A DNA stretch of 64,000 nucleotides from the NCBI RefSeq assembly GCF_001701025.1, contig NZ_CP016793.1:6324001-6388000 (forward strand), given 5' to 3'. Shown here piece after piece: positions 43,872-58,747 of this stretch (position 1 is the stretch's first letter; each line of letters starts with the position of its first letter). The notes under the pieces are model-generated. The model was not told the origin of the DNA. It was given only the letters and a program-made list of their open reading frames with translations, and did no database searches. The translations under genes and the position numbers were made by a program. The DNA is from Lentzea guizhouensis (GTDB lineage Bacteria; Actinomycetota; Actinomycetes; Mycobacteriales; Pseudonocardiaceae).

Positions 43872-44537
43872 TCACCAGAGGAACGCGAGTACGGCGATCC
43901 CGGCCGCGAGGACGAGCAACAGCAGGGCGATGGCCGAGTTGGCCGGTAGCGCCTTCTCGGCACCGAGCCTGGCGTACAGGCGGTCCAGCCGGGGGCGCAC
44001 CCGGTCCCTCAGGGCGGCTCCGGCCACCACCAGCACGATGCAGGGCAGGCAGTAGATCACGGCGTACCCGGCGAGGACCAGCACTGCCTGCCCTGCGGGA
44101 ACTCCGGCGCTGATGAGGCGTTCGACGGCGAGGAAGTAGGGGAACGCGTTCGGCAGGTCAGCGCCGGTCAGCAGAACTCCCAGTGGAACGGCGGTCCGGA
44201 TGGAGACCCACCCGGGCAGCACGACAGCGGCGCGTGTGCGAGCTCGGAAACGACGTACGCCCGCGGTCGCGAGCGTGACGGCGCCCAGCAACAGCGCCGC
44301 CCGTCTCAGCCAGGTCATCGCATCGTCGATCGCGCCGGCCGCGACGTCAGCTCCGAAGAAGAGCGCGATGCCCAACCCGAGCACCGCCGTGAAGGCGCCG
44401 AGTGCGAACAGGGCCGCTGCGGTCACCGGTCGGCGCAGTGGCGAGAGCAGCAACAGCGCCACTCCGGCGATCGTCGCGGGATTCAGCGCGTCCAGCAGCG
44501 CCAGACCCGCGATGCCGGTCAGCAGGACGGCGCTCAT
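43872..44537 (-). CDS. GAP/LysE-like small membrane transporter
   Basis: A 221-residue integral membrane protein with six hydrophobic segments. It opens LTGIAGLALLDALNPATIAGVALLLLSPLRRP, where the ALNPA signature is typical of the GAP (Sap) family related to LysE exporters, and has ADLPNAFPYFLAVERL near residue 136 and an IYCLPCIVLVVAGAAL helix near 170. Members move lipids or small molecules outward, and the substrate here is unknown. It overlaps the TetR gene upstream by 4 bases, so both are one operon under that regulator. Confidence 0.83.
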   Translation of the reverse strand: MSAVLLTGIAGLALLDALNPATIAGVALLLLSPLRRPVTAAALFALGAFTAVLGLGIALFFGADVAAGAIDDAMTWLRRAALLLGAVTLATAGVRRFRARTRAAVVLPGWVSIRTAVPLGVLLTGADLPNAFPYFLAVERLISAGVPAGQAVLVLAGYAVIYCLPCIVLVVAGAALRDRVRPRLDRLYARLGAEKALPANSAIALLLLVLAAGIAVLAFLW

Positions 44538-45052
44538 CCGGAGCCGGCAGCCAGTCCGAGGTGGCGGATGAGCTGCTCCACGGCCGCAGCGGAGGGCGGG
44601 TGCCCGGTCAGTGCGTTGAGGAACAGCCCGTCGCCGACCAGGCGGACCACCTGAGCCCGTGCTGCGTCAGCCAACTCCTCTTCCAGCATCCGTTCCCAGC
44701 GGTGCACGGCCTCGTCGACTCCTCGGGGGAGGTCCAGGTCGCCCATCGCGCTGACCCGCAACATGGACAGCATCGCCCGGTACAGCCGGCGTTCGTGTTC
44801 GTCCGGCATCGACAACCGAAGCCATTCCGCGGCCATCGAACCGGACTCCGCGGCTGCGGTCAGCCGCTCGTCCGCCATCCTGACGGCACGTTCGATGACG
44901 CCGTGCAGCAGCGTCTGGGTGGTGAAGTGGTAGAGGACGCCGCCCTTCGACACACCGGCTTCGTCAGCCACCGCCTGCAGCGGCGGCGGCACTTTGCCCT
45001 GGATCAGCAGCCGTTCGGCGGCATCGAGTATGTGATCGCGAGCGTTGGTCAT
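44534..45052 (-). CDS. TetR-family transcriptional regulator
   Basis: A 172-residue TetR protein. The DNA-binding domain is residues 1-50 (ARDHILDAAERLLIQG, then ADEAGVSKGGVLYHFTTQTLL), and the C-terminal part is the TetR_C helical type. ATG 45052 lies 4 bases from a 30-bp perfect palindrome that must be its operator. It is translationally coupled to the GAP-family transporter, a standard repressor/exporter pair, so the ligand is likely the exported compound. Confidence 0.88.
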   Translation of the reverse strand: MTNARDHILDAAERLLIQGKVPPPLQAVADEAGVSKGGVLYHFTTQTLLHGVIERAVRMADERLTAAAESGSMAAEWLRLSMPDEHERRLYRAMLSMLRVSAMGDLDLPRGVDEAVHRWERMLEEELADAARAQVVRLVGDGLFLNALTGHPPSAAAVEQLIRHLGLAAGSG

Positions 45053-45248
45053 GAGCCTACTGTACCGTCCGGACGGTACAGTAGGTATCCGAAACTCCGG
45101 GTCAGACGCCGATCACGCCAACGCCTCCGTCACCACTGCCGGTTCGCCCGCGAGCAGCTCGTTGTCGGCGAGGAAGTTCAACGCGAACTGCGGCTGCACC
45201 AGCGCACTCGCGCGCAGGCTCGAGAACCTGTCGGTCTGACGCCCGCGG
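45053..45248. other. Gap holding the TetR operator and a possible 3' gene scrap
   Basis: Besides the palindrome at 45056-45085, the minus-strand frame ending at 45113 encodes ASALVQPQFALNFLADNELL, whose composition looks natural. It has no start of its own and may be the tail of a lost gene upstream of the methyltransferase end. Support is weak. Confidence 0.3.
45056..45085. promoter_or_regulatory. 30-bp perfect palindromic TetR operator
   Basis: The left arm CCTACTGTACCGTCC is followed directly by its exact complement, with no mismatch or spacer. It begins 4 bases upstream of the TetR start, so binding would block the promoter of the TetR-GAP operon. Confidence 0.82.
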
Positions 45249-45854
45249 TCAGGACTTCCGGTAGACCAGCCGGATGTTCTGCGGCCCGGCCGAGGAGCGA
45301 CGGCGTTCGAACAGCTCGTCCAGCAGCGCGACGACCGGGCGGCGGCGGTGCCGGGTGAACACGGGACGCCAGAGGAACAGGACGAGCTCCCCGCCTGGCC
45401 GGAGCACCCGGTGTGCCTCGCGAACGGCGGCCAGCGGGTCGGGCATCTCCTCGAGGCTGTAGCCGTAGAACAGGGTGTCGGCCTGGTCGTCGGCCAACGG
45501 GAGCTTGCACCCGTCACCGGCCACATAGGACACTCGCGCACCCGGCACGCCGTCCAGCTGGTGCTGCAACGCTTGCATGGCGGACGGCGACGGGTCGAGG
45601 GCGATCAGGTCGTTCCCGCTGCCCAGGTGGGTCTTGAGGGCCGAGGTGTAGAAGCCGCCCCCGCTGCCGACCTCCAGGCAGACGGAACCGGGGCGGCGGC
45701 TGACCACGCGCAGGTCGTGGCGGGGCAGGTCCCAGCCGAGGATCATGCGCAGCACCGGGCTGCTGATCAGCCGGTACAGGCGGTCGGGTGTGCGCCAGCC
45801 GCCGCGGACGTCCGGCTGGGCCGGGGGTGTCGTGGTGGTCCTGAGGTCGGTCAT
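45249..45854 (-). CDS. Class I SAM-dependent methyltransferase
   Basis: A 201-residue methyltransferase. Motif I is CLEVGSGGGFYTSAL near 60-74, motif II (acidic) NDLIALDPSPSAM near 82, motif III YVAGDGCKLPLADDQADTLFYGYSLEEM near 110-137 and the post-motif HRVLRPGGELVLF near 147. It resembles UbiE/COQ5-like small-molecule methyltransferases. The start overlaps the drug-exporter gene stop by 4 bases, so it may modify the same compound or simply share the message. The substrate is unknown. Confidence 0.85.
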   Translation of the reverse strand: MTDLRTTTTPPAQPDVRGGWRTPDRLYRLISSPVLRMILGWDLPRHDLRVVSRRPGSVCLEVGSGGGFYTSALKTHLGSGNDLIALDPSPSAMQALQHQLDGVPGARVSYVAGDGCKLPLADDQADTLFYGYSLEEMPDPLAAVREAHRVLRPGGELVLFLWRPVFTRHRRRPVVALLDELFERRRSSAGPQNIRLVYRKS

Positions 45855-47353
45855 CGTGTGGTTCCTTCGTTCTTGGGCAGGGCGCGGGCCGCGGCGATCG
45901 TGGCGAGGACGAACAGGACGGCGCCGACGACCAGCGCGGCCCGCAGTCCGGTCACGAACGCGTCGCGAGCCAGGTCGAGCAGTTGGGAGCCCGCTTCGGG
46001 CGGTAGCGCCGAGGCAGCGGCGGTGGCTTCGGTGAGGCCGTCACGGGCCTGTGCCGCCGTGCTGGGAAGTGCGGCCGTGTAGACCAGGGTGGCGATGCTG
46101 CCGAGAACCGTGACGCCGAGACCGGCGCCGAGCTCGTAGGCGGTCTCCTCGACCGCGGCCGCCGCACCCGCCTGCTCGGCCGGCGCTGCGGCGAGCAGGG
46201 CGTCGGAGGCGGCGGTGAGCGAGATCGAGACACCGAACCCGGTCGCGGCCAGCACCGGTCCGAGCAGCCACAGGTTCTCGGTCGTCGTCAGGGCCGCGGC
46301 GCAGACCGCCAGGGCCACCGCGCTGACGGCGAAACCGGCCACCGTCATCCGGCGGTTCCCGAACCGCTGCAACAACGGCCCGGCCACGACGCTGCCGATG
46401 ACCGCCGAGCCCATGACGAACATCAGCCGCAACGCGGCAGGCATCGGTTGCAACGCGAGCACGAGCTGCAGGTACTGGGCGAACAGCAGTCCCAGGCCGA
46501 CCAACGAGGTCAGGACCAGCAGGACACTGCCGACCGCGACGCTGAACGCGCGGTCCCGGAACAACGTCACGTCCAGCAGCGGGACGGCGAGCTTCCGCTG
46601 CCGCCGCACGAACGCGACCAGCAACAGGCAGCCGAGCAGCCCGGCGACCGGGCCGAGCACGAACATCGTGCCGCCGTGCGGGGTCTGCTTGACCGCGAAG
46701 GCGATCCCGATGACGCCGACCGCGGCCAGCGCCGCGCTGAGCACGTCCCACGGCCCGTCCGGCGGGTCCGCGGACTCCGGGATCAGCCAGTAGGTCAGCG
46801 GAATCGCCACGACCATCACCGGCACGTTGATCAGGAACGCGGCGTGCCAGGAGAACGTCTCCACCAGGAAGCCGCCGAGCAACGGCCCGAGCACCGCCCC
46901 CGAGCCGGCCACCCCGCTCCAGATGCCGATGGCCGTCTGGCGTTCGGCGCGGTCGGGAAAGGCCTGGCGCAGCAACGACAGCGTCGCCGGCATGATCATC
47001 GCGCCACCGACGCCGAGTGCGGCCCGCGCGGCGATCAGCACGGCGACGTTGGGCGCCAACGCACAGGCGAGCGAGGCCAGCCCGAACACGACATAGCCGA
47101 GCACCAGGACCCGGCGCCGGCCGTAGCGGTCGCCCAACGTGCCGAACGCGAGCAGCAACGGCGCCGCGACCAGCGAGTACACCGCGATGATCCACAGCTG
47201 GCCGCTGGCGGTCGGCCGCAGGTCCTCCGCCAGCGCGGGCAAGGCCATGTGCAGCACGGTGGCGTCCACGGACACCAGCAGCAGGCTGGCGCACAAGATC
47301 GCCAGCACGAGCCAGCGCCTGCCCACCAGGACCCTGGAAGGGGGAGTCGTCAC
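45851..47353 (-). CDS. MFS multidrug exporter, DHA2 family (14 helices)
   Basis: A 500-residue major-facilitator protein with about fourteen hydrophobic segments. Motif A-type GTLGDRYGRRRVLVLGYVVFG lies near residues 70-90, motif C-like GVAGSGAVLGPLLGGFL near 147-163 marks it as a drug/proton antiporter, and SVDATVLHMALPALA near 28 is the DHA2 helix-1 signature. Start: GTG 47353. Coupled by overlap to a methyltransferase. It likely expels a hydrophobic cation or an endogenous metabolite using the proton gradient. Confidence 0.9.
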   Translation of the reverse strand: MTTPPSRVLVGRRWLVLAILCASLLLVSVDATVLHMALPALAEDLRPTASGQLWIIAVYSLVAAPLLLAFGTLGDRYGRRRVLVLGYVVFGLASLACALAPNVAVLIAARAALGVGGAMIMPATLSLLRQAFPDRAERQTAIGIWSGVAGSGAVLGPLLGGFLVETFSWHAAFLINVPVMVVAIPLTYWLIPESADPPDGPWDVLSAALAAVGVIGIAFAVKQTPHGGTMFVLGPVAGLLGCLLLVAFVRRQRKLAVPLLDVTLFRDRAFSVAVGSVLLVLTSLVGLGLLFAQYLQLVLALQPMPAALRLMFVMGSAVIGSVVAGPLLQRFGNRRMTVAGFAVSAVALAVCAAALTTTENLWLLGPVLAATGFGVSISLTAASDALLAAAPAEQAGAAAAVEETAYELGAGLGVTVLGSIATLVYTAALPSTAAQARDGLTEATAAASALPPEAGSQLLDLARDAFVTGLRAALVVGAVLFVLATIAAARALPKNEGTTR

Positions 47354-47442
47354 AACCAGTCAGCCCTACGTAGACGGCGGATACACCCTTCTACTGTGGC
47401 CGATGCCGGTCCGCAACACCTCATCCTTCCGGTGTTTGTGAG

Positions 47443-48399
47443 TCATCCTACGGTCGTAGAGCCGCCGGGCCGACCGGCCACCTCGTCCTGCGGGGTCTTG
47501 ACCGGGCCGGGGAAGAACATGTTGGTGGTGGCCTGGTAGAGCGCGTAGTCAGGGCGTTTGCGCACGCTGTGGTACTCGGCGGGGCGGGCGCCGGTGTGCT
47601 TGGTCAGCGTGACGTACAACGTCCAGGAGACGAGGAACAGGCCCAGCACCAGCAGCGCCCACACGACCGGTGACGTGTCGTGGAACCGCGCGGGCAGCGT
47701 GGGCAGCGCGAACAGGACCAGGGCGTTCCACTGCATCCACTGGAAGAAGTAGTTGGGGTGCCTGCTGTAGCGCCACAGCCCCCGGTCACAGGTGCCGCGC
47801 TCGCCACGTGCGGCGAACCGCCGTTTCTGACCGTCCGCCACGGACTCCAGCACGAAGGAGGCGGCCCACAGGGCCAGCGCGCACGCGGCCCAGACCGACA
47901 GCCGCGGCTGGTCGGCGGCGACGAGGAACGCGGGAACGGCGAGCACCGACGCGTTCGCCAGCCCCTGCAGCCAGATCTCGTACTGGACGGAGATCGCCTC
48001 GCTGCGGAACCCCTGCCGCTCCCAGCGCCGCCGCTGGTACCGGTACCGGGGGAGCTCGGCCTTGGGGGAGCCGGGCGTCCACCAGCCGTGCTTCACCGTC
48101 ATCACCAGGCTCCACAGCCCCATCCGCGCTCCCATGGCGAGGTAGGGGACCGCGACGGCCACCGCACCGGGCCCGTCGGCCGTGACCAGGGTGACCACGC
48201 CGATGCCGACCAGTCCCCACGGCCAGGCCACGTCGACGTACGACACGTGCCGCGTGAGGTGTCCGGGGACGGCCGCCAGCAGGGTGAACAGCACGCCCTG
48301 CACCACGAGGTTCGGCCAGGCGAGCCCCGCGGTCGCCGGCGCCAGCACCAACGCGGCCCCGACCAGGACGAACGGCAGCATCGCCCAGACTCGCCGCAT
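47443..48399 (-). CDS. DUF1295-family membrane protein (isoprenylcysteine methyltransferase-like)
   Basis: A 318-residue integral membrane protein with about seven hydrophobic segments. The conserved DUF1295 tail GLWRYSRHPNYFFQWMQWNAL near 205-225 and the HTGARPAEYHSVRKRPDY segment near 280 are present. The frame begins at ATG 48429, but the ATG at 48399 has a GAGGAGG site 6 bases upstream and is preferred. The family is related to ICMT/steroid-reductase-like membrane enzymes; a lipid or sterol-like substrate is likely but unproven. It is divergent from a TetR regulator and shares its repeated operator. Confidence 0.83.
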   Translation of the reverse strand: MRRVWAMLPFVLVGAALVLAPATAGLAWPNLVVQGVLFTLLAAVPGHLTRHVSYVDVAWPWGLVGIGVVTLVTADGPGAVAVAVPYLAMGARMGLWSLVMTVKHGWWTPGSPKAELPRYRYQRRRWERQGFRSEAISVQYEIWLQGLANASVLAVPAFLVAADQPRLSVWAACALALWAASFVLESVADGQKRRFAARGERGTCDRGLWRYSRHPNYFFQWMQWNALVLFALPTLPARFHDTSPVVWALLVLGLFLVSWTLYVTLTKHTGARPAEYHSVRKRPDYALYQATTNMFFPGPVKTPQDEVAGRPGGSTTVG

Positions 48400-48421
48400 C
48401 GCGGCCTCCTCGTCGTCCCGG

Positions 48422-48473
48422 TGAGACATTCCGTCTGTTTGTCTCAGTGAGACACTTTATACATGCTGTCTCA
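48422..48473. promoter_or_regulatory. Four TGAGACA/TGTCTCA half-sites between DUF1295 and TetR genes
   Basis: TGAGACA at 48422-48428, a perfect TGTCTCA-G-TGAGACA palindrome at 48440-48454, and TGTCTCA at 48467-48473. Three overlapping inverted-repeat pairs could seat two or more TetR dimers. The last half-site lies inside the TetR coding start, and TTTATAC just before it may be the -10 element. Confidence 0.75.
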
Positions 48474-49038
48474 CGCCGCGGCCAACGTGAACCTGACCAC
48501 CGAGCCCGAGGTGGACCCGGTCATCGCCCTCGCGCTCCGGCAGTTCCTCCGCGAGAGCCGCATCGACATGGGCGACCTCGCCACGACGGCCGGCATCGGC
48601 CGTGCCACCCTCTACCGCCGCTACGGCGACCGCGACCGCGTCCTGGGCGAGGTGCTGTGGGCCATCACGCAACGGGCGTGGTCACGCCTGTGGCACGCCA
48701 GCCCCGAACGCGGCCTGGCCAGGGTGAGCGCCGTGCTCGACCAGGCGATGCGCGACACCGTCACCTCACCGGCCCTGCGCGCCCTGCTCGAACGCGACCC
48801 CGAGACGGCGCTGCGGGTGCTCACCTCCCAGCAGGGCGTGGTGCAACACCGCCTGGTGACCGGCCTGGCCGACCTCATCCGCGCCGAACGCGGCGACGAC
48901 CCGCCCGACATCCCGGCGACCAAGCTGGCCTACGCCGTGGTCCGGCTCGCCGAGTCGTTCTGCTACTCCGACGTGATCGCCGGCGCGCCACCGGACATCG
49001 ACACCGCCACCGACATCATCCGCAAACTCCTGGCCTAG
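48463..49038 (+). CDS. TetR-family regulator (QsdR-like C-terminal domain)
   Basis: A 191-residue regulator. The helix-turn-helix is about residues 17-62 (PVIALALRQFLRES, then TTAGIGRATLYRRYGDRDRVLGEVLW) and the C-terminus, with LLERDPETALRVLTSQQGVVQHRLV near 105-129, fits the QsdR-type domain. No ribosome site precedes ATG 48463 and a TATA-like -10 sits right before it, so translation is probably leaderless; GTG 48487 is the other option. It probably represses the divergent DUF1295 gene and itself through the TGAGACA sites. Confidence 0.87.
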   Translation: MLSHAAANVNLTTEPEVDPVIALALRQFLRESRIDMGDLATTAGIGRATLYRRYGDRDRVLGEVLWAITQRAWSRLWHASPERGLARVSAVLDQAMRDTVTSPALRALLERDPETALRVLTSQQGVVQHRLVTGLADLIRAERGDDPPDIPATKLAYAVVRLAESFCYSDVIAGAPPDIDTATDIIRKLLA

Positions 49039-49079
49039 GGCCTCATCAAGGAACGTTGTAACGGTGTCGAGCCCGTTGT

Positions 49080-49841
49080 CTACACCTTGCTCGCCACCAC
49101 CATGTAGTTCTCGGCCTCAGGGTTGAACGTGCTCATCTCCGTCCGCAGTCCGACCCGGTGCAACTCCACTTCGAGCTCGTCGTATCGGTAGGGCCAGCAC
49201 GACAGCAGTTCCGAGCGGACGAGAACCGGCCCAGCCGCATCAACTTGCGCGACCGCAATCTCGATGTGGTGCTCCTCCTCCCACAGCGGTGCGATCTCCC
49301 AGCGGTAGACCACGACGGCATCACGACCGTTCCGGCGGACGAGTCGGTCACTGATGTCCAGTCGGGAACCTCTGGCCCTCACGAGTTCCCACGTGCGGGA
49401 AGTGAGCACCAAGCGCCCGCCACGGCGCAGAAGCCGTGACATCGACTCCAGAGCAGCACCCCTGCCTCTCGCGCCCACGGCATGGTGCAGCGAGTTGCCG
49501 ACGCAGAACACCATGTCGAAGGTGGCGTCATCGAAATGGTCGGGCAACTCTTCCCAGTCCGCCCGCACTGTCCGGACCGATGCCCCGAACTCCCCGGACA
49601 ACTCCGCAGTCCGACGAACCATCGCTTCGCTGGCGTCAGTTGCGACAACCTGCATACCAAGACCAGCGAGGCCAACCGCCAACTGCCCGGTTCCGCACGA
49701 ACAATCGAGGACGTGAGCGTTGGGCGGCAGGAGACTGAGGACGTCATCGAACGACGCAGCGAACTCGGCCGGAGTCAGCTTCACATCGGAGATGAGCCAC
49801 TCGTACACCTCGGCAAGCGCGTCATAACCCGTCACAACCAC
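49080..49841 (-). CDS. Class I SAM-dependent methyltransferase
   Basis: A 253-residue methyltransferase. It starts YDALAEVYEWLISD, has motif I HVLDCSCGTGQLAVGLAGLG near 43-62, acidic VVATDASEAMV near 65, motif III ADWEELPDHFDDATFDMVFCVGNSLHH near 94-120 and SRLLRRGGRLVLTSRTWE near 134. The layout is close to glycine/sarcosine N-methyltransferase-like enzymes. It stands alone, convergent with the TetR gene, and its substrate is unknown. Confidence 0.85.
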   Translation of the reverse strand: MVVTGYDALAEVYEWLISDVKLTPAEFAASFDDVLSLLPPNAHVLDCSCGTGQLAVGLAGLGMQVVATDASEAMVRRTAELSGEFGASVRTVRADWEELPDHFDDATFDMVFCVGNSLHHAVGARGRGAALESMSRLLRRGGRLVLTSRTWELVRARGSRLDISDRLVRRNGRDAVVVYRWEIAPLWEEEHHIEIAVAQVDAAGPVLVRSELLSCWPYRYDELEVELHRVGLRTEMSTFNPEAENYMVVASKV

Positions 49842-50019
49842 TACCTCCGTCGCGCGGCAGACTCACGGTGGCACATCAGTACATCAGCGGAGCAAGTCGG
49901 TTCACCAACGGTTTTCGCAACGGCAACCCGCCCGCTCATGCCGCGAACCGAGCGCTACTCCCGGCTGACGCGCCGTCTGGCACAACCCACTGACCGCCTT
50001 ACGCATCACTCGTCTGGCG

Positions 50020-52611
50020 TCAGGCGAAGGACGCCAGGTAGACGCACACGATGCCGAGGACGTACACGGGATAGCCGATGCGGGCGCTGTTCGCGAGTGC
50101 GCGTTCCGCGTCGTCGCGCCTGACGTTCGCCAAACCCTTGCGCACCATAGCGATCAGCACGCAACACGCGGCCAGCAGGATGAAGGCGTAGTAGCCCCAC
50201 TCCAGTGCGACGGTGTAGCTGACCGACGGCAGTTGTGAGGTGACGTTGTTGAGCAGGACGGCGGTGCTGAGGATCGCGGTCACGCCCATGGACACGGGCG
50301 CAGCGCTTTCGGAGGGTTTGAAAAACAGCGACAGGTAGGTGACGCAGATCAGCAGTGCCAGCGGGAGCAGGTTCTTGAACAGGAACGGCAGGACGTCGCG
50401 CGTGATGACGACCTCCGCGGCGTACTGGCTGTAGAAGATCCCCGATGTCGCGCCCACCGCTTTGGGGTCGCCGAGGGCGTCGCTGCTGCCGACGGTCTGC
50501 TGGAAGAAGCGTGCCGACCTGGCCAGCCAGTTGGGCGCCTGGTTGATGTCGCGGCTGGCGTCGGCGCCGCTGCGCAGGTAGTCATCGGGTTTCTGGTTGA
50601 GGATCTCCTTGTCGGTGGCGTACACGACCTGCTCGCTGGTCCGGGTCCGGTTCTGCAGCACGGCGGAGAGCCGCTGGTGGTCGAAGGGGAAGTCGCGGAA
50701 GTCGAAGCTGGACCTGAACCGGTCGGCCACCCGGTACAGCCGGTACGTGACGCCGTTCTCGGTCACGTCGCGCAGTGGTGTGCCGAGCTTGAGGTCCGGC
50801 TTCACGGCGTTGATGAACTGCACGTCGGACGCCGCGTGATCACCCACGTACTTCAACCAGAGGAAGAAGTCCATGTAGTAGGTGCCGTCGCGGGTGTCGA
50901 CGTCGCGGACCTCGTTGAGGTTGATGCCGGTGGCCACGACCTGGCGCCGGGTCAGGTGCCGGTTGCCGATCGTGATGACGTGGCCGCCGGCGGTGTCGGC
51001 CCGCAGCGCGGCCTCGGACAGCGGCTCGTAGATCGTGAGCTGCACGGGGGCGGAGACGAACTTCGTGCCGTCACTGGTCACAATGGACACGGGCATCTGC
51101 GCGGAGCCGTTCTCGGTGAAGTACAAGGGGCCGAGCAACGCCTGGAACGCGTTCTTGCGGTCCTTCAAGCCCCCCAGCGCGTCACGAAGGCGCTGCCTGT
51201 CCTCTGCCTTGTGGTTGTCGTCGAGTCCGTAGCCGTTGTCGCGCATGAGGTGCAGACCGATGTTGAGCGCTTGGCGCGCGGTCGCGGCGTGCCAGAGAGG
51301 GCGTTCGCCGTAGCGCCGCTCGAACTCGTGCGCCCAGGCCAGCGCCGGCCCGGACAGCGAGTCCTGGGCCATCGGCGTGCCCATGTAGAGGCCCGGCGTG
51401 AGCTTGCCCTGCAGGCCCTGCGCCTGTTCCCTGGCGATGAGCAGGTCGTGAAAAGCACGGCTGGCCAGGGAGTCGGTGCCCAGGACCGGGGCGGTGACAC
51501 CCGCGGTGCGCAGCTTCGTGATGATCTCCAGGCCGAGCTTCTCCCGCACGGCCAGCACGATCGGCACCCCGGGAGCAAGGGTCCGCAGGCGTTGGACAGC
51601 GGCGTCCACGGTGGCCGCGGAACGTTCTGGTTCGTAGGACACGGGAAGCTCCGCGGCGACGGCACCGAACGTGCGGAACGACGCGACGAACGTCTCTCGT
51701 CCAGAGCGGCCGGACTCGTTGTCGCCGTACACGATCGCGGCCGTGTCAGACCCGAGGACCTTCGCACCGTACGCGGCGAGGAAGTCGCTTTGGGTGCGGT
51801 TGCCGAACATGCTGCGGAAGTACCAGTCGCTGCCGTCGGTGATCTGCGACGAGGTCGCCGACGGGGTGATCGCCGGGATCTTGGCCTTCTGGTAGATCGG
51901 CGCGGCGGCCAGGGCCGTGTCGCTGACACCATGACCGATGACGTACATGACCTTGTTCTCACGGACGATCTGTTCCGCGATGCCGCGGGCCCTGTCCGGC
52001 TGGTCCGCGTCGTCGTACACCAGCAGCTCGACGGGATGCCCGTTGATCCCGCCAGCCTCGTTGATGATGTCCGTGTGCATCCGCAGGCTGCGTTCCATGT
52101 GCGCCGACGTCGTCGCCGACTCGCCGGTCATGCCCGCGACCAGCGCCACGTGCACGGGTTCACCGGACCGCGAACCCGACGCCAGCGCGAAGCCCAGCCC
52201 GGTCACCAGCATGAGCACCACCGCCGCGGCGCCGGCCCACGGCACCCACCCGCGCCCTCTGCCCGCCGGTTTCCGCACGCCGCTGGCGTCCGGCCTCTCC
52301 GGTTTCGCCAGGAGCACCACTTCGGCCGGTGGACGGGTCGGCCCGGCACCCAACGCGGCACGGGCCCGTCGCGTGTCCGGATCCCGCGCGATGGCGTACG
52401 CCTTGTCCAGGCAGTACCGGCGTTCGCCGTCGTCGGTGACCAGTTCGGCCAGCCAACGCCAGGCGGGCTCGTACTTGACGTCTTCCGCCAACGCGCGGCC
52501 GAGCAGTTCCCTGGCCTGAGCGGGATCGGACTGCCGCACTCGCACAGCCCGGTTGGTCAGCGAGAGGGCAGCGGTGTCAGATCCGTCGGGCACGCAGGTC
52601 TCCAGAGCCAT
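50020..52611 (-). CDS. Pentameric ligand-gated ion channel fused to a periplasmic-binding-protein domain and an N-terminal TPR-like region
   Basis: An 863-residue membrane protein. Residues about 14-88 form TPR-like helices (LLGRALAEDVKYEPAWRWLA); 124-146 is a membrane helix; 152-535 is a type-1 periplasmic-binding domain of the Leu/Ile/Val class (VHVALVAGMTGES, INEAGGINGHPVELLVYDD). From about 545 the chain is a pentameric ligand-gated channel: strand region INLNEVRDVDTRDGTYYMDF near 563-582, the Pro-loop FDFRDFPFDHQRL at 636-648, M1 740-764 with its conserved Pro, pore helix M2 about 772-792 ending QLPSVSY, M3 801-823 and M4 846-862. Predicted topology is N-terminus inside, sensor and channel head outside. 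It should open an ion pore when the outer domain binds a small ligand. ATG 52611 is used; GTG 52593 has a better ribosome site (GGAG). Confidence 0.9.
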   Translation of the reverse strand: MALETCVPDGSDTAALSLTNRAVRVRQSDPAQARELLGRALAEDVKYEPAWRWLAELVTDDGERRYCLDKAYAIARDPDTRRARAALGAGPTRPPAEVVLLAKPERPDASGVRKPAGRGRGWVPWAGAAAVVLMLVTGLGFALASGSRSGEPVHVALVAGMTGESATTSAHMERSLRMHTDIINEAGGINGHPVELLVYDDADQPDRARGIAEQIVRENKVMYVIGHGVSDTALAAAPIYQKAKIPAITPSATSSQITDGSDWYFRSMFGNRTQSDFLAAYGAKVLGSDTAAIVYGDNESGRSGRETFVASFRTFGAVAAELPVSYEPERSAATVDAAVQRLRTLAPGVPIVLAVREKLGLEIITKLRTAGVTAPVLGTDSLASRAFHDLLIAREQAQGLQGKLTPGLYMGTPMAQDSLSGPALAWAHEFERRYGERPLWHAATARQALNIGLHLMRDNGYGLDDNHKAEDRQRLRDALGGLKDRKNAFQALLGPLYFTENGSAQMPVSIVTSDGTKFVSAPVQLTIYEPLSEAALRADTAGGHVITIGNRHLTRRQVVATGINLNEVRDVDTRDGTYYMDFFLWLKYVGDHAASDVQFINAVKPDLKLGTPLRDVTENGVTYRLYRVADRFRSSFDFRDFPFDHQRLSAVLQNRTRTSEQVVYATDKEILNQKPDDYLRSGADASRDINQAPNWLARSARFFQQTVGSSDALGDPKAVGATSGIFYSQYAAEVVITRDVLPFLFKNLLPLALLICVTYLSLFFKPSESAAPVSMGVTAILSTAVLLNNVTSQLPSVSYTVALEWGYYAFILLAACCVLIAMVRKGLANVRRDDAERALANSARIGYPVYVLGIVCVYLASFA

Positions 52612-52798
52612 GGGTCGATGAGGTGGGATGGCTCGACGGCCACCCGCGTTCAATACTCGCAGCACCGGCGGCGGGTACGGCCTTGATCGCCGTGCAGTTC
52701 AGCCAGAAGTGGTCACGCCGGCACCCGAAGCGGCAGTGACAACGGCCGGTTCGCCGCGGGAACGGTTGTGGTGGAGCGGGACGAGCACCGGGAAAGCC

Positions 52799-52836
52799 CG
52801 AGGGCCGGCTCGGCGGAATGTCCGAGCCGGCCCTCG
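52799..52836 (-). terminator. Strong terminator hairpin after the nSTAND gene
   Basis: A perfect 15-bp stem, CGAGGGCCGGCTCGG (52799-52813) with its complement (52822-52836), closes an 8-base loop 25 bases beyond the nSTAND stop and about 190 bases before the channel gene start on the same strand. It is the strongest hairpin seen in the window and should largely separate the two transcripts. Confidence 0.75.
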
Positions 52837-52861
52837 AAGTCCTGCGTCGTTCTGCAGCGAG

Positions 52862-55663
52862 TCACGCCGTGCACGGCATGGGCAGCCGGGGTGGGCTGCC
52901 GAAGTGTCGCTGCCACTGCTCGTCGGTCGGGCGAGCCGCGCTGAGCATCCGACACGCGTCGGCGTTGGCGCCCTCGTGGTCGAGGTGCCACTGGTACTCG
53001 TTGTTGTCCTCGTCAACGGCGAGCAAGGAGCTGCCGTCCGGCGCCCACAGCAGCGCGACGGTGGTGGGGGTGCGGGAGTCGAGATCGGCGCCCTTCGTCA
53101 GGCGCTCTTCGGAGTTCCGGTACCAGGGGGTGATCTTCCCCTCGCCGGCGGTGATGACGGTTCTTCCGTCGGAGCTCGCGCTGATCGCGGTGATCGGGCC
53201 GGAATGGGCCTGCACCACCGCGAACGGCCGAGCGGGGTGCTCGCCGAGCTCCCACAGCTGCAGCTCGCCGGTGGCGGTGCCGACCACCAGGTCGGCGCCT
53301 GCGTCCGCCACGACTGCGGACGAGGCGTTCGGCACCCGTGCCTCGAGCCGCATCTGCGGTTCCGCGGGCTTGTCGACGTCCCACACCCGGACGATGTCCT
53401 GCTCGACGGTCACCAGGTAGTAGCCGGTGAAGATGCCTCGCGCACCTGGGATCGTCGCACCGCGTTGTGGGGCCGAGGAGTTGGTCACGTCCCAGAGCAC
53501 GGTCGTGCCACCCTCTTCCTCTGCCGCGAGAAGCCGCCTGCTGCTGATCACGTCGAACGCGGTCCTCGTGAACCGGCCGGGCAGGGTGGCGACCGTCCGG
53601 TGAGTGGTGCGATCGGACAGCCGCACGACCTGCTGGTCGTCGACAAGCGCGAACAGCTGACCTCCAGCGCTCATGCTGGCGTGCGTGACGTTGAGGTACA
53701 TGTCCATGTTGCGGAGTTGTCGGTCAACGAGCAGAGCGGTTCCTCGGACCTGTTTGCCGCTGTTCCGGCCGCCGGTGAAGGACGGCAGGCCGTAGTCGGT
53801 GAGCACCTTGTGCGGTGCGGCCAGTCTTTCGGACGTCGCTGTCGCCAAGGTGCTGACCAAAGTGGTGCCGGCTCGCTGGGTGGGGTCGAGCCGGTAGCCG
53901 GCGAGTGCGACGTAGGCGGCCATGCTGGGAGCGGTGTCCCGCATCTTCACCGCCTCGGTGACCGCCCACTCCGCCAGCTCGGCGTTGCGGTTGCCCGAAC
54001 CGTCTATTGTGGACTGGACCGCCGCTCCGTCGATCACGAGCACGGCGGTCAACAGTGCTGCCTGGAGCAGAACGGTCGCGCGGCGCCGGTGCCGGGAACG
54101 CCGCTGCCGCGTGTAGGCGCGTTCGTCCGCGGCGACGCTCTCGTCCAGGAACCGTTGCTCCGCCTTGTTGAGCGGCGCGTTGGCGTCCCAGGCCCAGTCT
54201 GCGACCGCGGTGAGGCGAGCACCGCGGAGCAGGCTGTCGGGATCGCGGCCGTGACGCTCCCAGGTCGCCGTGGCGTCGGTGAGTTCGCGGTGCAGGCGCT
54301 GCCCGTCGCGATCCTCGGCGAGCCAGCCGCTGAGCCGTGGCCAGGCGCGGATCAGAGCTTCGTGGGTGATCTCGACGTCGTCTTGGGTGCGGGTGACCAG
54401 CCGCGCGTCGGTGAGCTCGTCGAGCACGGTGACGTCGTCGATCTCGGTCAGGGTGACTCGGCGTTTGGTGTCCTCGGTGCCGTCGCCGAGTGCGCACAAC
54501 CGCAAGAACAGAGCTCTAGCGGCTTCTTGCTGGTGCTGGTCAAGCGCGTCGAACGTTGCCTCGGCCGTCTGCACGAGCGCGCCGCGGATGCCGCCTGCTG
54601 CGTCGAAAGCGGCGACGGTCAAGGTGTTGCCCTGGCGCCTGCGCCACGTCTCCAGCAACGCGTGGGACAGCAGCGGCAGCACGCCCGCTTCGCCGTGCGT
54701 CTCGGCGACCAGCGTCGTGACCAGCGCACCCTCGACCGTGCACTCCGCTGTCCGTGCGGGACCGGTGATCGCGCGGCGCAGCTCGTCCGCGCTCATCGGG
54801 GTGACCGTGACCATCGCGTCCTGCCAGGCCGCCACCAGGTCTGCGTGCAGGGTGCACCGCGCGTAGAAGTCGGCCCTCACCCCGATCACGACCCTGCACC
54901 GGCTCTGCTCACCGTGCGCGGCTGTGATCAACGCAGTCAGGAACGCCACCCGCTCGTCCGCGTCCCGGCACAGTGTGAAGACCTCCTCGAACTGGTCGAC
55001 GACCAGCACGAGCTGCGCATCGGCCGGTCCCGCAGCGAGCGCCTGCCGGACGAGAACGCCCAGCGACCCGGGATCCTCCTTCAGCTCGCGGAACGCTTCC
55101 GGGGCGCTGAACCCGAGGCGCGCGGACAGGTGCACCGCGCACTCCTCCAGCGGATGCGCGCCCGGCGTGAACACCACGACGGGACCGGGCAGGTGCGGGA
55201 CGAGCCCGGCACGCAGAACCGACGACTTCCCCGACCCGGACGGGCCGAACACCGCGACGAACCGGCGCCCGCCCAGGCGACCGGCGATGTTCGCGATCAG
55301 TGCTTCCCGCCCGAAGAACCGGTCGGCGTCCTCCACCTCGTACGCCGACAACCCCGGATAGGGTCCTTTCCCGGTGTTGTCCGGTGCCGCTGGAGCGCTG
55401 AGCTCCGCCGCGATCGAACGCCACCGCTGCTCCCATTCGGCGGGATCTGCGCCACAGGCCCTGACGAACGCGATCGTGACGGCAAGACTCGGCAGCCGTT
55501 TGCCTCCGGCCGCGTCCGACAGCGTCGTCGACGAGAAATGTGCGCGTTTCGCCATCTCCCGGTAAGGCGGTTTTCCTGCTTTTTCCCGCAGTTGTCGCAG
55601 ATCAGCCGCGAATTCCACCAGAGCGGTCCCATCACGCTCCAGCGGTTGCTCCTGGCGTGGCAC
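52862..55663 (-). CDS. HTH-nSTAND ATPase-WD40 signalling protein with one membrane helix
   Basis: A 933-residue STAND-class protein. An XRE-like helix-turn-helix lies at about 18-82 (REMAKRAHFSSTTLSDAAGGKRL). The nSTAND P-loop ATPase follows: YPGLSAYEVEDADRFFGRE near 102-120, Walker A GPSGSGKSS at 140-148 and Walker B LVLVVDQFEEVF at 218-229, with the winged-helix part ending VEITHEALIRAWPRL near 430-444. A hydrophobic helix spans 529-550, then degenerate WD40-type repeats (VLWDVTNSS, VRVWDVDKP, LQLWELGEH) run to the C-terminus. Such proteins are ATP-driven switches, often linked to stress or phage sensing. GTG 55663 starts just before the HTH. It lies upstream of the channel gene, same strand, with a terminator between. 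Confidence 0.88.
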   Translation of the reverse strand: MPRQEQPLERDGTALVEFAADLRQLREKAGKPPYREMAKRAHFSSTTLSDAAGGKRLPSLAVTIAFVRACGADPAEWEQRWRSIAAELSAPAAPDNTGKGPYPGLSAYEVEDADRFFGREALIANIAGRLGGRRFVAVFGPSGSGKSSVLRAGLVPHLPGPVVVFTPGAHPLEECAVHLSARLGFSAPEAFRELKEDPGSLGVLVRQALAAGPADAQLVLVVDQFEEVFTLCRDADERVAFLTALITAAHGEQSRCRVVIGVRADFYARCTLHADLVAAWQDAMVTVTPMSADELRRAITGPARTAECTVEGALVTTLVAETHGEAGVLPLLSHALLETWRRRQGNTLTVAAFDAAGGIRGALVQTAEATFDALDQHQQEAARALFLRLCALGDGTEDTKRRVTLTEIDDVTVLDELTDARLVTRTQDDVEITHEALIRAWPRLSGWLAEDRDGQRLHRELTDATATWERHGRDPDSLLRGARLTAVADWAWDANAPLNKAEQRFLDESVAADERAYTRQRRSRHRRRATVLLQAALLTAVLVIDGAAVQSTIDGSGNRNAELAEWAVTEAVKMRDTAPSMAAYVALAGYRLDPTQRAGTTLVSTLATATSERLAAPHKVLTDYGLPSFTGGRNSGKQVRGTALLVDRQLRNMDMYLNVTHASMSAGGQLFALVDDQQVVRLSDRTTHRTVATLPGRFTRTAFDVISSRRLLAAEEEGGTTVLWDVTNSSAPQRGATIPGARGIFTGYYLVTVEQDIVRVWDVDKPAEPQMRLEARVPNASSAVVADAGADLVVGTATGELQLWELGEHPARPFAVVQAHSGPITAISASSDGRTVITAGEGKITPWYRNSEERLTKGADLDSRTPTTVALLWAPDGSSLLAVDEDNNEYQWHLDHEGANADACRMLSAARPTDEQWQRHFGSPPRLPMPCTA

Positions 55664-55695
55664 CTCGCTCAACCCCTTCGAAGAAGCATCACCGA

Positions 55696-55742
55696 TTGTC
55701 CGGGCGTTGTTGTCCGGCGTCCAGCCCGTCGGCGCCGGACAA
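55696..55742. promoter_or_regulatory. Three TTGTCCGG elements upstream of the nSTAND gene
   Basis: TTGTCCGG occurs at 55696-55703 and 55710-55717 (14 bases apart) and in inverse as CCGGACAA at 55735-55742. They lie 33-80 bases upstream of the nSTAND start, in promoter position, and could be read by that protein's own helix-turn-helix or by another regulator. Confidence 0.5.
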
Positions 55743-55894
55743 CGCCGCTGCACTACACCTGGCTTGTCATCTGGTGTGCAGCGCAATGGTTGCGATCGTC
55801 GGCATCGGCACTTCTGTGTATGGCAGAAACTGACGAATCTTCGCAACTTCGGTTCGAATGAGCGGGGTGGTCGATGTGAATCGGAGAGGGGTGG

Positions 55895-56405: not shown

Positions 56406-57308
56406 GTGCAGGAGATCGTGCTGGGTGACGTCACCGTCACCCGAGTCACCGAGTACTACGGCTCGGTCGACATGTCGCCGAAGACCTTCTTCCCCGAGAG
56501 CCCCGAAAGTGCGTGGCGCGAGCACGAACACTGGCTCGCCCCCGACTTCGTCGACCTGGAGACCGGCGTCTGCGTCTCCGCGATCCAGACCTGGGTCCTG
56601 CGCAGCGGGGGCAGGACGATCCTGGTCGACACCGGCGTCGGCAACCACAAGGAACGGCCCTACTCCCCGGTGTGGAGCCACCTGAACACCGGCTTCCTCG
56701 GCAACCTCGAACGCGCCGGGGTGCGGCCACAGGACGTCGACCTGGTGGTCAACACCCACCTGCACGTCGACCACGTCGGCTGGAACACCTACCTCGACGA
56801 CCGGACCTGGGTGCCGACCTTCCCCAACGCCACCTACCTCATGCCCAAGGCCGACTTCGACTTCTGGAACCCGGCCAACGGCCACCGGCCGAATCTGGGC
56901 CGTGGCAACCAGAACGTCTTCGAGGACAGCGTCGCCCCGGTGCACGAGGCCGGTCTCACGCTGCTGTGGGAGGGCAGCCACCGGATCGACGGGAACCTCG
57001 CGCTGGAGCTCGCGCCGGGGCACACGCCCGGTTCCTCCGTGCTCACCCTCGACTCAGGCGGCGACCGCGCGTTGTTCGTCGGCGACCTGCTGCACACCGC
57101 CCTGCAGCTCGTCGAGCCCGACACGAACAGCTGCTTCTGCGAGGACCCGGCGGAGGCCAGGGCGACGCGGCGGCGGCTGCTCGGCCGGGCTGCGGACGAG
57201 AACGCGCTCGTCATCCCCGCCCACCTCGGCGGGCACGGCGGCGCGGAGGTCGTCCGCGAAGGCGGCAAGTTCGCCATCAAGACCTGGGCGCCGTTCGCCC
57301 GTCTCTGA
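56406..57308 (+). CDS. Metallo-beta-lactamase-fold hydrolase
   Basis: A 300-residue MBL-fold enzyme. The metal motif THLHVDHVGWN near 115-125, the following His in LAPGHTPGSSV near 200, the bridging Asp in ALFVGDLLHT near 223 and the last His in VIPAHLGGHG near 270 complete a two-metal site. ILVDTGVGNHKE near 76 is the usual lead strand. Start GTG 56406 has GGGAG 6 bases upstream; the frame opens earlier without a site. It resembles lactonase/arylesterase-type members and is followed 20 bases later by a carboxylesterase, so the pair may degrade an ester or lactone. Confidence 0.87.
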   Translation: MQEIVLGDVTVTRVTEYYGSVDMSPKTFFPESPESAWREHEHWLAPDFVDLETGVCVSAIQTWVLRSGGRTILVDTGVGNHKERPYSPVWSHLNTGFLGNLERAGVRPQDVDLVVNTHLHVDHVGWNTYLDDRTWVPTFPNATYLMPKADFDFWNPANGHRPNLGRGNQNVFEDSVAPVHEAGLTLLWEGSHRIDGNLALELAPGHTPGSSVLTLDSGGDRALFVGDLLHTALQLVEPDTNSCFCEDPAEARATRRRLLGRAADENALVIPAHLGGHGGAEVVREGGKFAIKTWAPFARL

Positions 57309-57328
57309 CCGAAGAACAGGAGGAACGG

Positions 57329-58747
57329 GTGTCCCACCCGATCGTCACCACCACCGAAGGCGCCGTCCGAGGTCGTGCCACCGAGCACGCGCACGTCTTC
57401 CTCGACATCCCCTACGCGGCACCACCGACCGGCGCGGCCAGGTTCGCCGCTCCGGCGCCCCACGCGTCCTGGCCCGACGTCCGGGACGGCACCCGGCCGG
57501 GACCGACTGCTCCCCAGCCGCACCGCGACGGGTTCGGCGCCCTGGACATGTCCGTCTACTTCGGACCCGGCTGGGTGCGCGGCGACGACTACCTCACCGT
57601 CAACGTGTGGGCGCCACCGCGGGCCACGCGCAGCCCGGTCATGGTTTTCGTGCACGGTGGTGGTTTCATCACCGGCTCCACCGGGTCCGAGCTCTACGAC
57701 GGCACGTCGTTCGCCCGCGACGGCGTGGTGCTCGTGACCCTGAACTACCGGCTCGGCATCCCCGGCTTCCTCGACCTGCCCGGCGCGCCGCCCAACCGCG
57801 GGATGCTCGACGTCGTGGCCGCGCTGCGCTGGGTCAGGCGCAACATCGAGGCGTTCGGAGGCGATCCGGGCAACGTCACGCTGTTCGGCCAGTCGGCGGG
57901 CGCGACGATCGTCGGTGGCGTGCTGGCCGGCTCCGGGGCGAGCGGCCTGTTCCACCGCGCCATCGTGCAGAGCGGCAGCGGTCTGGGCGCTTTCTCCCCG
58001 GAGCAGGCGGCACGGGTGACCGCCGCGGCGGCCACCGCACTCGGCGTCGAACCGGCGACGGCGGACTTCGCCCGGATCTCGGACGAGGACTTCGTCGAGG
58101 TGCTGCGCGAGCTCGGTGGGCTGGACCTGGCGACGAGCACCCGGTTCGACCCGTTGCTCGGCCTCAGCCCGTTCAGCCTGGTCCTCGACCGGCAACCGGC
58201 CGAAGCCGTGGCCGCGGGTGCCGGTGCGGAGGTTGCGTTGATGGTCGGCACGAACACCGAGGAGGGCAACCTCTACCTGGTACCGCAGGGAAATCTGGCT
58301 AGTTCGACCGAGGAGGACGTGTTGGGCGTGGCCGCGCGGATGCACCGCGATCCGGCCGTGCTGGTGGAGCGGTTCCGTGCACGGCATCCAGGGGCGAGCG
58401 CGGGGGAGCTGCGTTCAGCGCTTGTGGGCGAAGCCCTGTTCGGCGCCGGTAGCCGCCGGCTCGCTGAGGCACACGCAGCCCGTGCTCACACCTACGAGTT
58501 CGCCTGGCGATCGTCTGCAGTGGACGGTCTGCTCGGGGCTGCTCACACGGTGGAGCTGCCGTACGTGTTCGACTGCCTCGACCTCCCCGCCCTGCGCGGC
58601 CCTCGCGGACTGCTCGGCCCGGCGGAACCTCCCGCGGAGCTGGCGGCACAGGTGCACGGGGCGTGGGTGAGCTTCGCCCGCAGCGGGGACCCCGGCTGGC
58701 CCGCAACACGGACACACCGCTTCACCGGGCCGTACGGCGGTTCGTGA
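57329..58747 (+). CDS. Type-B carboxylesterase
   Basis: A 472-residue alpha/beta-hydrolase of the carboxylesterase/para-nitrobenzyl esterase family. The oxyanion region is VFVHGGGFITGS near 109-120, the nucleophile elbow TLFGQSAGATIVGG near 189-202, the acid Glu in VGTNTEEGNLYL near 306-317 and the catalytic His in GAAHTVELPYVF near 408-419. There is no signal peptide, so it acts in the cytoplasm. Start GTG 57329 behind AGGAGGA; the frame is open far upstream. It probably shares a transcript with the MBL-fold gene. A related esterase begins at the right window edge. Confidence 0.9.
   Translation: MSHPIVTTTEGAVRGRATEHAHVFLDIPYAAPPTGAARFAAPAPHASWPDVRDGTRPGPTAPQPHRDGFGALDMSVYFGPGWVRGDDYLTVNVWAPPRATRSPVMVFVHGGGFITGSTGSELYDGTSFARDGVVLVTLNYRLGIPGFLDLPGAPPNRGMLDVVAALRWVRRNIEAFGGDPGNVTLFGQSAGATIVGGVLAGSGASGLFHRAIVQSGSGLGAFSPEQAARVTAAAATALGVEPATADFARISDEDFVEVLRELGGLDLATSTRFDPLLGLSPFSLVLDRQPAEAVAAGAGAEVALMVGTNTEEGNLYLVPQGNLASSTEEDVLGVAARMHRDPAVLVERFRARHPGASAGELRSALVGEALFGAGSRRLAEAHAARAHTYEFAWRSSAVDGLLGAAHTVELPYVFDCLDLPALRGPRGLLGPAEPPAELAAQVHGAWVSFARSGDPGWPATRTHRFTGPYGGS

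Follow-up and report, generated by a model that had tools for sequence, protein, structure and literature searches.

Background

Does an actinomycete encode a channel of the neurotransmitter-receptor type that carries its own solute sensor, and, if so, what would open it and what would pass through it? The question is raised by a gene on the minus strand (positions 50020–52593) of a 64,000-nucleotide stretch of the Lentzea guizhouensis genome (contig NZ_CP016793.1, positions 6,324,001 to 6,388,000), which we call the window. A reading of this stretch made from the letters alone, below the sequence-only reading, described a bacterial pentameric ligand-gated ion channel (pLGIC) fused to a binding-protein sensor. 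We found that the protein joins in one chain a segment resembling tetratricopeptide repeats (TPR), an additional membrane helix (TM0), a type I periplasmic-binding protein (PBP) domain, or Venus flytrap, and a pLGIC. The explanation towards which we lean, if only slightly, is a homopentameric ligand-gated channel in which the flytrap would gate a probably anion-permeable pLGIC pore.

To our knowledge, most bacterial pLGICs have neither an assigned ligand nor an assigned role. PBP-fused pLGICs as a kind are already known: Tasneem et al. described type I PBP (PBP-I) fusions to pLGICs in the alpha-proteobacteria Magnetospirillum magnetotacticum and Bradyrhizobium japonicum and proposed a role in chemotaxis (PMC549065), which bears out the remark in the sequence-only reading that such fusions had been noted in surveys. 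Those PBP-I-fused acetylcholine-receptor-type ligand-gated ion channels (ART-LGICs) are like the window protein in having a type I PBP domain N-terminal to an extracellular domain and a four-helix pore in one chain. However, the examples named are alpha-proteobacterial, and their description in the passages concerned, with which the comparison was made, mentions neither a TPR-like segment nor TM0 (PMC549065).

The gene and the architecture of its product

A single long open reading frame (ORF) fills positions 50020–52611 of the minus strand. Its probable start is the GTG at 52593, which gives 857 residues. We preferred it to the ATG at 52611 (863 residues), which the sequence-only reading had taken and which is probably wrong, because close homologues begin with a GTG-initiated VPxxPDTA-like sequence. 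Residue numbers count from this GTG throughout. From the N- to the C-terminus the protein contains TPR-like helices (residues 8–81), TM0 (117–138), the flytrap (146–508), a linker, the pLGIC extracellular domain (approximately 539–733) and the helices M1–M4 (734–856). The strand, the TPR-like segment and TM0 had no place in the sequence-only reading and are added here. The features are listed below with their evidence, which includes AlphaFold2 (AF2) models and the ratio of nonsynonymous to synonymous substitution rates (dN/dS).

50020..52593, minus strand: gene for the TPR-TM0-PBP-pLGIC protein (ORF listing; start from close homologues; dN/dS)
52351..52572, minus strand: TPR-like all-helical cytoplasmic segment, residues 8–81 (AF2 helices; TPR_19 matches)
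52180..52245, minus strand: TM0 membrane anchor, residues 117–138 (AF2 helix; hydrophobic 20-mer in 20/20)
51070..52158, minus strand: type I periplasmic-binding (Venus-flytrap) domain, residues 146–508 (Peripla_BP_6; LivJ profile and fold)
50395..50979, minus strand: pLGIC-type extracellular beta-sandwich domain, residues 539–733 (profile match, separate model, fold comparison)
50668..50706, minus strand: Pro-loop FDFRDFPFDHQRL, residues 630–642 (FPFDxQ invariant in 20/20 aligned proteins)
50329..50394, minus strand: M1 helix, residues 734–755, with the conserved kink proline P744 (alignment and AF2)
50236..50295, minus strand: M2 pore helix, residues 767–786; 9' is L775 and 6' is T772, with neutral A-A-P at -2' to 0' (alignment and AF2)
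50125..50223, minus strand: M3 helix, residues 791–823 (AF2)
50026..50118, minus strand: M4 helix, residues 826–856 (AF2)

Our comparisons are based on an alignment of 20 full-length proteins, that is, the window protein and 19 homologues (two of which, L069 and L070, are near-identical). A pattern-based scan of a species-genome collection confirmed 16 loci, 14 of them full-length and two broken (L017 and L018). Fourteen homologues came via whole-protein patterns, with a possible bias towards the full architecture; the five added via the channel profile alone show the same full architecture. The N-terminal segment, TM0, the flytrap and the channel are present in all 20 proteins.

Superfamily hallmarks have been tabulated as an F/YPxD loop between beta-6 and beta-7 with an absolutely conserved proline, an aromatic residue (W, F or Y) in beta-9, an arginine before M1, a proline in M1 and a proline between M2 and M3 (PMC4795631). 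All 20 aligned proteins have FPFD (residues 635–638), the beta-9 aromatic W689 (placed by the model strand 689–696), R732 before M1 and the kink proline P744, and 19, the window protein included, have P789 between M2 and M3. The claim of a Pro-loop followed by four hydrophobic helices in order is thus borne out by the invariant FPFDxQ and by M1–M4 of the AF2 model. Among the three families named in the sequence-only reading, Peripla_BP_6 (E 4.9e-40) and Neur_chan_memb (E 2.1e-8; 35.2 bits against a cut-off of 28.1) are matched, and each was found in all 15 members scanned, whereas Neur_chan_LBD (E 0.31) falls below its cut-off. A plain Azospirillum pLGIC also falls below it (E 0.007); divergent bacterial members score low.

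The 50 Foldseek matches listed for the full-protein model are solely binding proteins and class C receptor flytraps. For this reason the channel part was modelled separately, and the predicted fold is a beta-sandwich extracellular domain with a four-helix bundle (predicted local distance difference test score, pLDDT, 64), as the sequence-only reading had expected of the monomer.

A hydrophobic 20-mer precedes the flytrap in all 20 proteins, and the lysines and arginines around it, summed over the proteins, number 108 before TM0 versus 19 after. Because of this bias, the TPR-like segment is probably inside the cell and the flytrap outside, an orientation that agrees with what the pLGIC fold requires. 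Residues 11–80 are helical in the AF2 model (pLDDT block means 83–92). TPR_19 matches 11 of 12 isolated N-terminal segments at E values up to 1 (best 6.9e-5; 2.3e-4 for the window protein, below the curated cut-off) and only three of 15 whole proteins at E values up to 0.01, and the best Protein Data Bank (PDB) match of the segment has an E value of 0.05. The TPR label is therefore weak. A search in 20 genomes (scoring was limited to 150 first-look candidates in each) matched the channel gene only, in two genomes, and we rejected the idea that the segment is a module common to other proteins.

The flytrap domain and its putative ligand

The flytrap profile matches LivJ-type proteins with E values down to 8.7e-38, and the predicted fold matches LivJ 4gnr with a TM-score (target) of 0.85. 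Together with the Peripla_BP_6 match this confirms a Leu/Ile/Val-type binding domain ahead of a pLGIC in an actinomycete chain. The designation holds for the fold; as a name for the ligand it does not, since only two of five contact positions of the leucine/isoleucine/valine-binding protein (LIVBP) are identical and the positions vary within the family. The equivalents of LIVBP S79, T102, D121, Y150 and E226, which we take to be its ligand contacts, are S224, T247, N265, S294 and D374 in the window protein: two identical, two similar and one changed.

Across the 20 proteins, position 79 is S in 15 and T in five, position 102 is T in 11, S in seven and G in two, and position 121 is N in 14, D in five and S in one. 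Position 150 is S in 11, the window protein included, Y in seven and D in two; position 226 is D in 10, A in eight and S in two. Seven homologues outside the 12-member clade of the window protein read S, T, N, Y and D, with which the window protein agrees at four of five positions. Both L068 and L012 have the tyrosine and aspartate contacts. The Saccharothrix members L007, L008, L009, L011 and L016 have alanine at 226 and serine at 150. In mGluR1, which is related to LIVBP-type flytraps, Ser165 and Thr188 contact glutamate (PMC5372683). An amino-acid-like ligand is thus plausible in the ancestral protein; in that of the window it is less certain, and ligands may differ among members. None of the eight neighbouring genes scanned (44534–49841 and 56406–58747) is an ABC importer gene.

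The drift of the contact positions would fit a flytrap that is merely accessory, a modulator or spacer. The agonist would then act on the extracellular domain, like those of GLIC and ELIC, and might be protons or a divalent ion; the N-terminal lobes of DeCLIC would be the better analogy. We consider this rather unlikely, as the flytrap is under purifying selection (dN/dS 0.21) and is still joined to the extracellular domain in relatives where the pore has been exchanged.

The pore and its selectivity

The pre-M2 PAR motif marks animal anion-selective Cys-loop receptors; both GLIC and ELIC conduct cations. Among the 20 aligned proteins the PAR motif occurs only in L068 (PARV; the window protein has A-A-P), and cysteines flanking the Pro-loop occur in none. 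No protein has an acidic residue at -2', -1' or 0'. Position 0' is arginine in six, proline in 12 (the window protein included), glycine in one and deleted in one.

A profile of M1–M3 was searched against the PDB, and the 60 listed of 115 matches are all subunits of GABA-A, GluCl or glycine receptors, or chimeras with such a pore. It scores 51.7 bits with a GABA-A alpha5 construct and 42.1 with glycine receptor (GlyR) alpha1, versus 22.7 with nicotinic acetylcholine receptor (nAChR) alpha7, 20.3 with 5-HT3A, 17.3 with GLIC, 14.0 with nAChR alpha1 and 8.2 with ELIC; six of the segments compared, GLIC and ELIC included, were entered by hand. Plain pLGICs from an actinobacterium and from Azospirillum score 24.7 and 14.8 bits. 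From M1 to the M2–M3 loop the profile aligns without gaps with GABA-A and glycine receptors, at about twice the score of the cation channels tried. In M1–M3 the anion receptors lead clearly, but a similar sequence does not amount to the same selectivity.

The anion-channel resemblance is confined to the pore, because the sequence matches of the extracellular part go to GLIC and the fold does not discriminate: nicotinic receptors tie within one Z unit in the fold comparison, the Foldseek matches of the channel model include GLIC and ELIC, and the predicted fold thus does not separate anion from cation receptors. The pore module is closer in sequence to animal anion channels than to GLIC and ELIC, the class that the sequence-only reading had mentioned. 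The window protein is like GLIC and ELIC in its extracellular domain, its four helices and the lack of Cys-loop cysteines, and GLIC has a YPFD/FPFD-type loop. Unlike it, both are without flytrap and TM0, and their pores are less similar, as the scores given above indicate. From animal GABA-A, glycine and GluCl receptors it differs by having no Cys-loop cysteines and no PAR motif and by the extra flytrap and TM0.

On these grounds the pore is probably anion-permeable. A rival concerns selectivity only and is compatible with the rest of our explanation: the same build could be cation-selective or unselective, like the cation channels GLIC and ELIC. An acidic residue at or adjacent to -4' in 17 of 20 proteins (E in the window protein) could favour cations, and the PAR motif of animal anion channels is missing. 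The neutral -2' to 0' stretch in all 20 proteins and the gap-free, twofold-scoring alignment with GABA-A and glycine receptors speak against it, and we give this alternative a substantial chance that stays somewhat below even. A non-conducting membrane receptor that signals via the TPR-like segment would account for the presence of this cytoplasmic segment in all 20 proteins. We hold it to be very unlikely, given that T6', I8', L9' and V13' are invariant in all 20 and that dN/dS of the transmembrane domain is 0.22.

Distribution, loss and selection

Among 394 genomes of the class, a search with the channel profile hit nine, including six intact fusions, one of which is the window gene. The other three are a split copy (G383) and frames of 476 (G308) and 383 residues (G447), too short for a flytrap. 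Four of 296 genomes match in a phylum-wide sample, namely that of the window and three whose frames span 285–408 residues. In the phylum of the Dormiibacterota member G719, four of 201 match: one copy is intact, one is cut short, one is in pieces and one is a 351-residue frame.

Of 24 genomes from the window's genus, three carry the gene intact and a fourth carries a remnant, and broken copies occur in relatives (L017, L018, L072, L073, L074 and L080/L088 of G817). The gene is thus dispensable, and the broken copies represent repeated loss. In the tree the window protein and L003 form one group (100/100), whereas L004, which comes from the window's genus, joins Solihabitans (100/100); since two members of one genus fall in different groups, the history of the gene is patchy, by loss, transfer or both.

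Purifying selection acts on the protein. For the window pair dN/dS is 0.17–0.35 across the cytoplasmic, flytrap, extracellular and transmembrane parts, and in two other pairs it is 0.08–0.35. These values, and the full architecture retained across deep divergence, argue against a horizontally moving accessory gene of little or no benefit to its host that is being lost. The patchy presence, the two separate gene lineages in one genus and the broken copies would fit such a gene, which we nevertheless regard as marginally less probable even than the non-conducting receptor.

Two further observations concern damaged copies. The cut-short copy in the Dormiibacterota phylum adjoins a transposase-like frame, presumably IS110-like, and the genome of Streptomyces sp. 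G44 has a damaged copy (L074) in addition to the intact L013.

Counterparts with an MscS pore on Azospirillum plasmids

A search of 72,556 plasmid records gave nine matches, all from Azospirillum; among viral contigs there were 62 pattern matches, none of which was confirmed. We looked at three genes from two of the nine plasmid records.

L065, 6693–9761, Azospirillum plasmid: flytrap and pLGIC-type extracellular domain on an MscS pore
L066, 6414–9755, Azospirillum plasmid: flytrap and pLGIC-type extracellular domain on an MscS pore
L085, 11867–15370, Azospirillum plasmid: same layout with a cyclic-nucleotide-binding domain

From TM0 through the extracellular domain, L065 (1022 residues) aligns with the window protein over 570 columns at 27% identity (E 1e-51) and L066 with an E value of 2e-54; for the flytrap and extracellular domain of L085 the alignment covers 514 columns (E 9e-43). 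The sensory module is colinear with that of the window protein, and MscS replaces the pLGIC pore: an MscS domain ends L065 (E 4e-18) and L066 (E 1e-15), and in L085 such a domain (E 3e-16) is accompanied by a cyclic-nucleotide-binding domain at the C-terminus (E 7e-18). In pLGICs the F/YPxD motif is located at the interface of extracellular domain and pore. By inspection it is absent from all three proteins, and L066 and L085 retain nearby prolines. The colinearity with an exchanged pore supports the view that TM0, flytrap and extracellular domain may be one gating unit.

A bolder reading goes further: a portable cassette of TM0, flytrap and extracellular ring would sit on two unrelated pores, pLGIC in Actinomycetota and Dormiibacterota and MscS in Azospirillum, and would form in the former an amino-acid-gated bacterial chloride channel. 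We put this forward tentatively and consider it doubtful.

The annotation of L065 reads ABC transporter substrate-binding protein. Immediately behind this MscS-type gene come genes for type I secretion (L065:9758–14149; ABC protein, HlyD, TolC), and a very large VCBS-domain gene adjoins. The plasmid of L085, NC_013856.1, also carries at least two plain pLGIC frames, of 388 and 427 residues (L085:2993–4156 and L079).

Gene neighbourhood

Called proteins from the window and 16 loci, 328 in all, were clustered. The calls came from a simple GC-frame scorer that is weak for lower-GC genomes, and the intact-gene loci L067–L071 were left out. The channel was the only cluster running through the loci, and a conserved operon partner was rejected, as no other cluster did so. 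Clusters in at least three loci are mostly synteny common to five Saccharothrix loci. A carboxylesterase cluster and a major facilitator superfamily (MFS) cluster occur in three loci each, the window included, and one further cluster occurs in three.

Directly upstream on the same strand (52862–55846) lies a gene for an nSTAND1 NTPase with an N-terminal helix-turn-helix (HTH) and C-terminal WD40-like repeats; it was rejected as a partner, having no cluster mates at other channel loci. A promoter and terminator scan of 49000–53000 detected none and is uninformative for actinomycetes. A plus-strand reading of 50020–52611, where frame 1 is otherwise open with one stop and a 669-residue antisense frame spans 50677–52686, was rejected without a library search, as all family evidence is on the minus strand. 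Local GC content is about 67–69%, and mirror frames are frequent in DNA of such composition.

Proposed mechanism and its place among known systems

We infer a homopentameric ligand-gated channel in the cytoplasmic membrane, built from five copies of the protein. In each copy the TPR-like segment would lie inside, TM0 would cross the membrane, and the flytrap, linker and extracellular domain would lie outside, followed by the four-helix pore. An amino-acid-like solute would close the flytrap; the linker would relay this motion to the extracellular ring, and the contact of Pro-loop and pre-M1 segment would open or tune the pore. The TPR-like segments may help in assembly or tether a partner. Such a channel is most naturally read as a chemosensor. 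Mycelial actinomycetes are largely non-motile. For this reason the chemotaxis proposed by Tasneem et al. is unlikely for the window protein.

Several points weigh against this explanation. AF2 confidence is modest (pLDDT 69 and predicted TM-score, pTM, 0.50 for the full protein; 64 and 0.54 for the channel alone), and we know of no homologue with an assay. To these are added the GLIC-like extracellular matches, the indecisive fold comparisons, the acidic residue near -4', the variation at LIVBP positions 150 and 226, the few intact and several broken copies among relatives and the lack of any companion cluster. The basic residue at M2 0' is missing from the window protein (proline); it is conserved at 79% in a superfamily survey and so is not obligatory (PMC4795631).

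That survey, by Jaiteh et al., left the terminal parts out, and as of 2016 domain association had genome-level evidence only (PMC4795631). DeCLIC is another pLGIC extended by a large extracellular part at its N-terminus, and it is described as the sole one with a partly characterised N-terminal domain; its extension, however, consists of two jelly-roll lobes with calcium sites and not of a Venus flytrap (PMC12664993). Word-matched searches of open-licence papers in PubMed Central, which are weak evidence of absence, turned up no paper on an actinobacterial flytrap-pLGIC, the TPR-TM0 front end, the anion-type pore, the actinomycete and Dormiibacterota family or a flytrap-extracellular-MscS protein.

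Domains of the class that putatively binds the ligand here can be purified and screened in isolation, which makes the question of the ligand directly testable. Were the cassette reading true, bacteria would possess a pLGIC pore of the anion type, and an MscS channel could be gated by the binding of a solute. The MscS relatives are a natural pore swap, informative on the gating of a channel by an extracellular ring. If the pore of the window protein conducts chloride, it would bear on the origin of the anion branch of neurotransmitter receptors.
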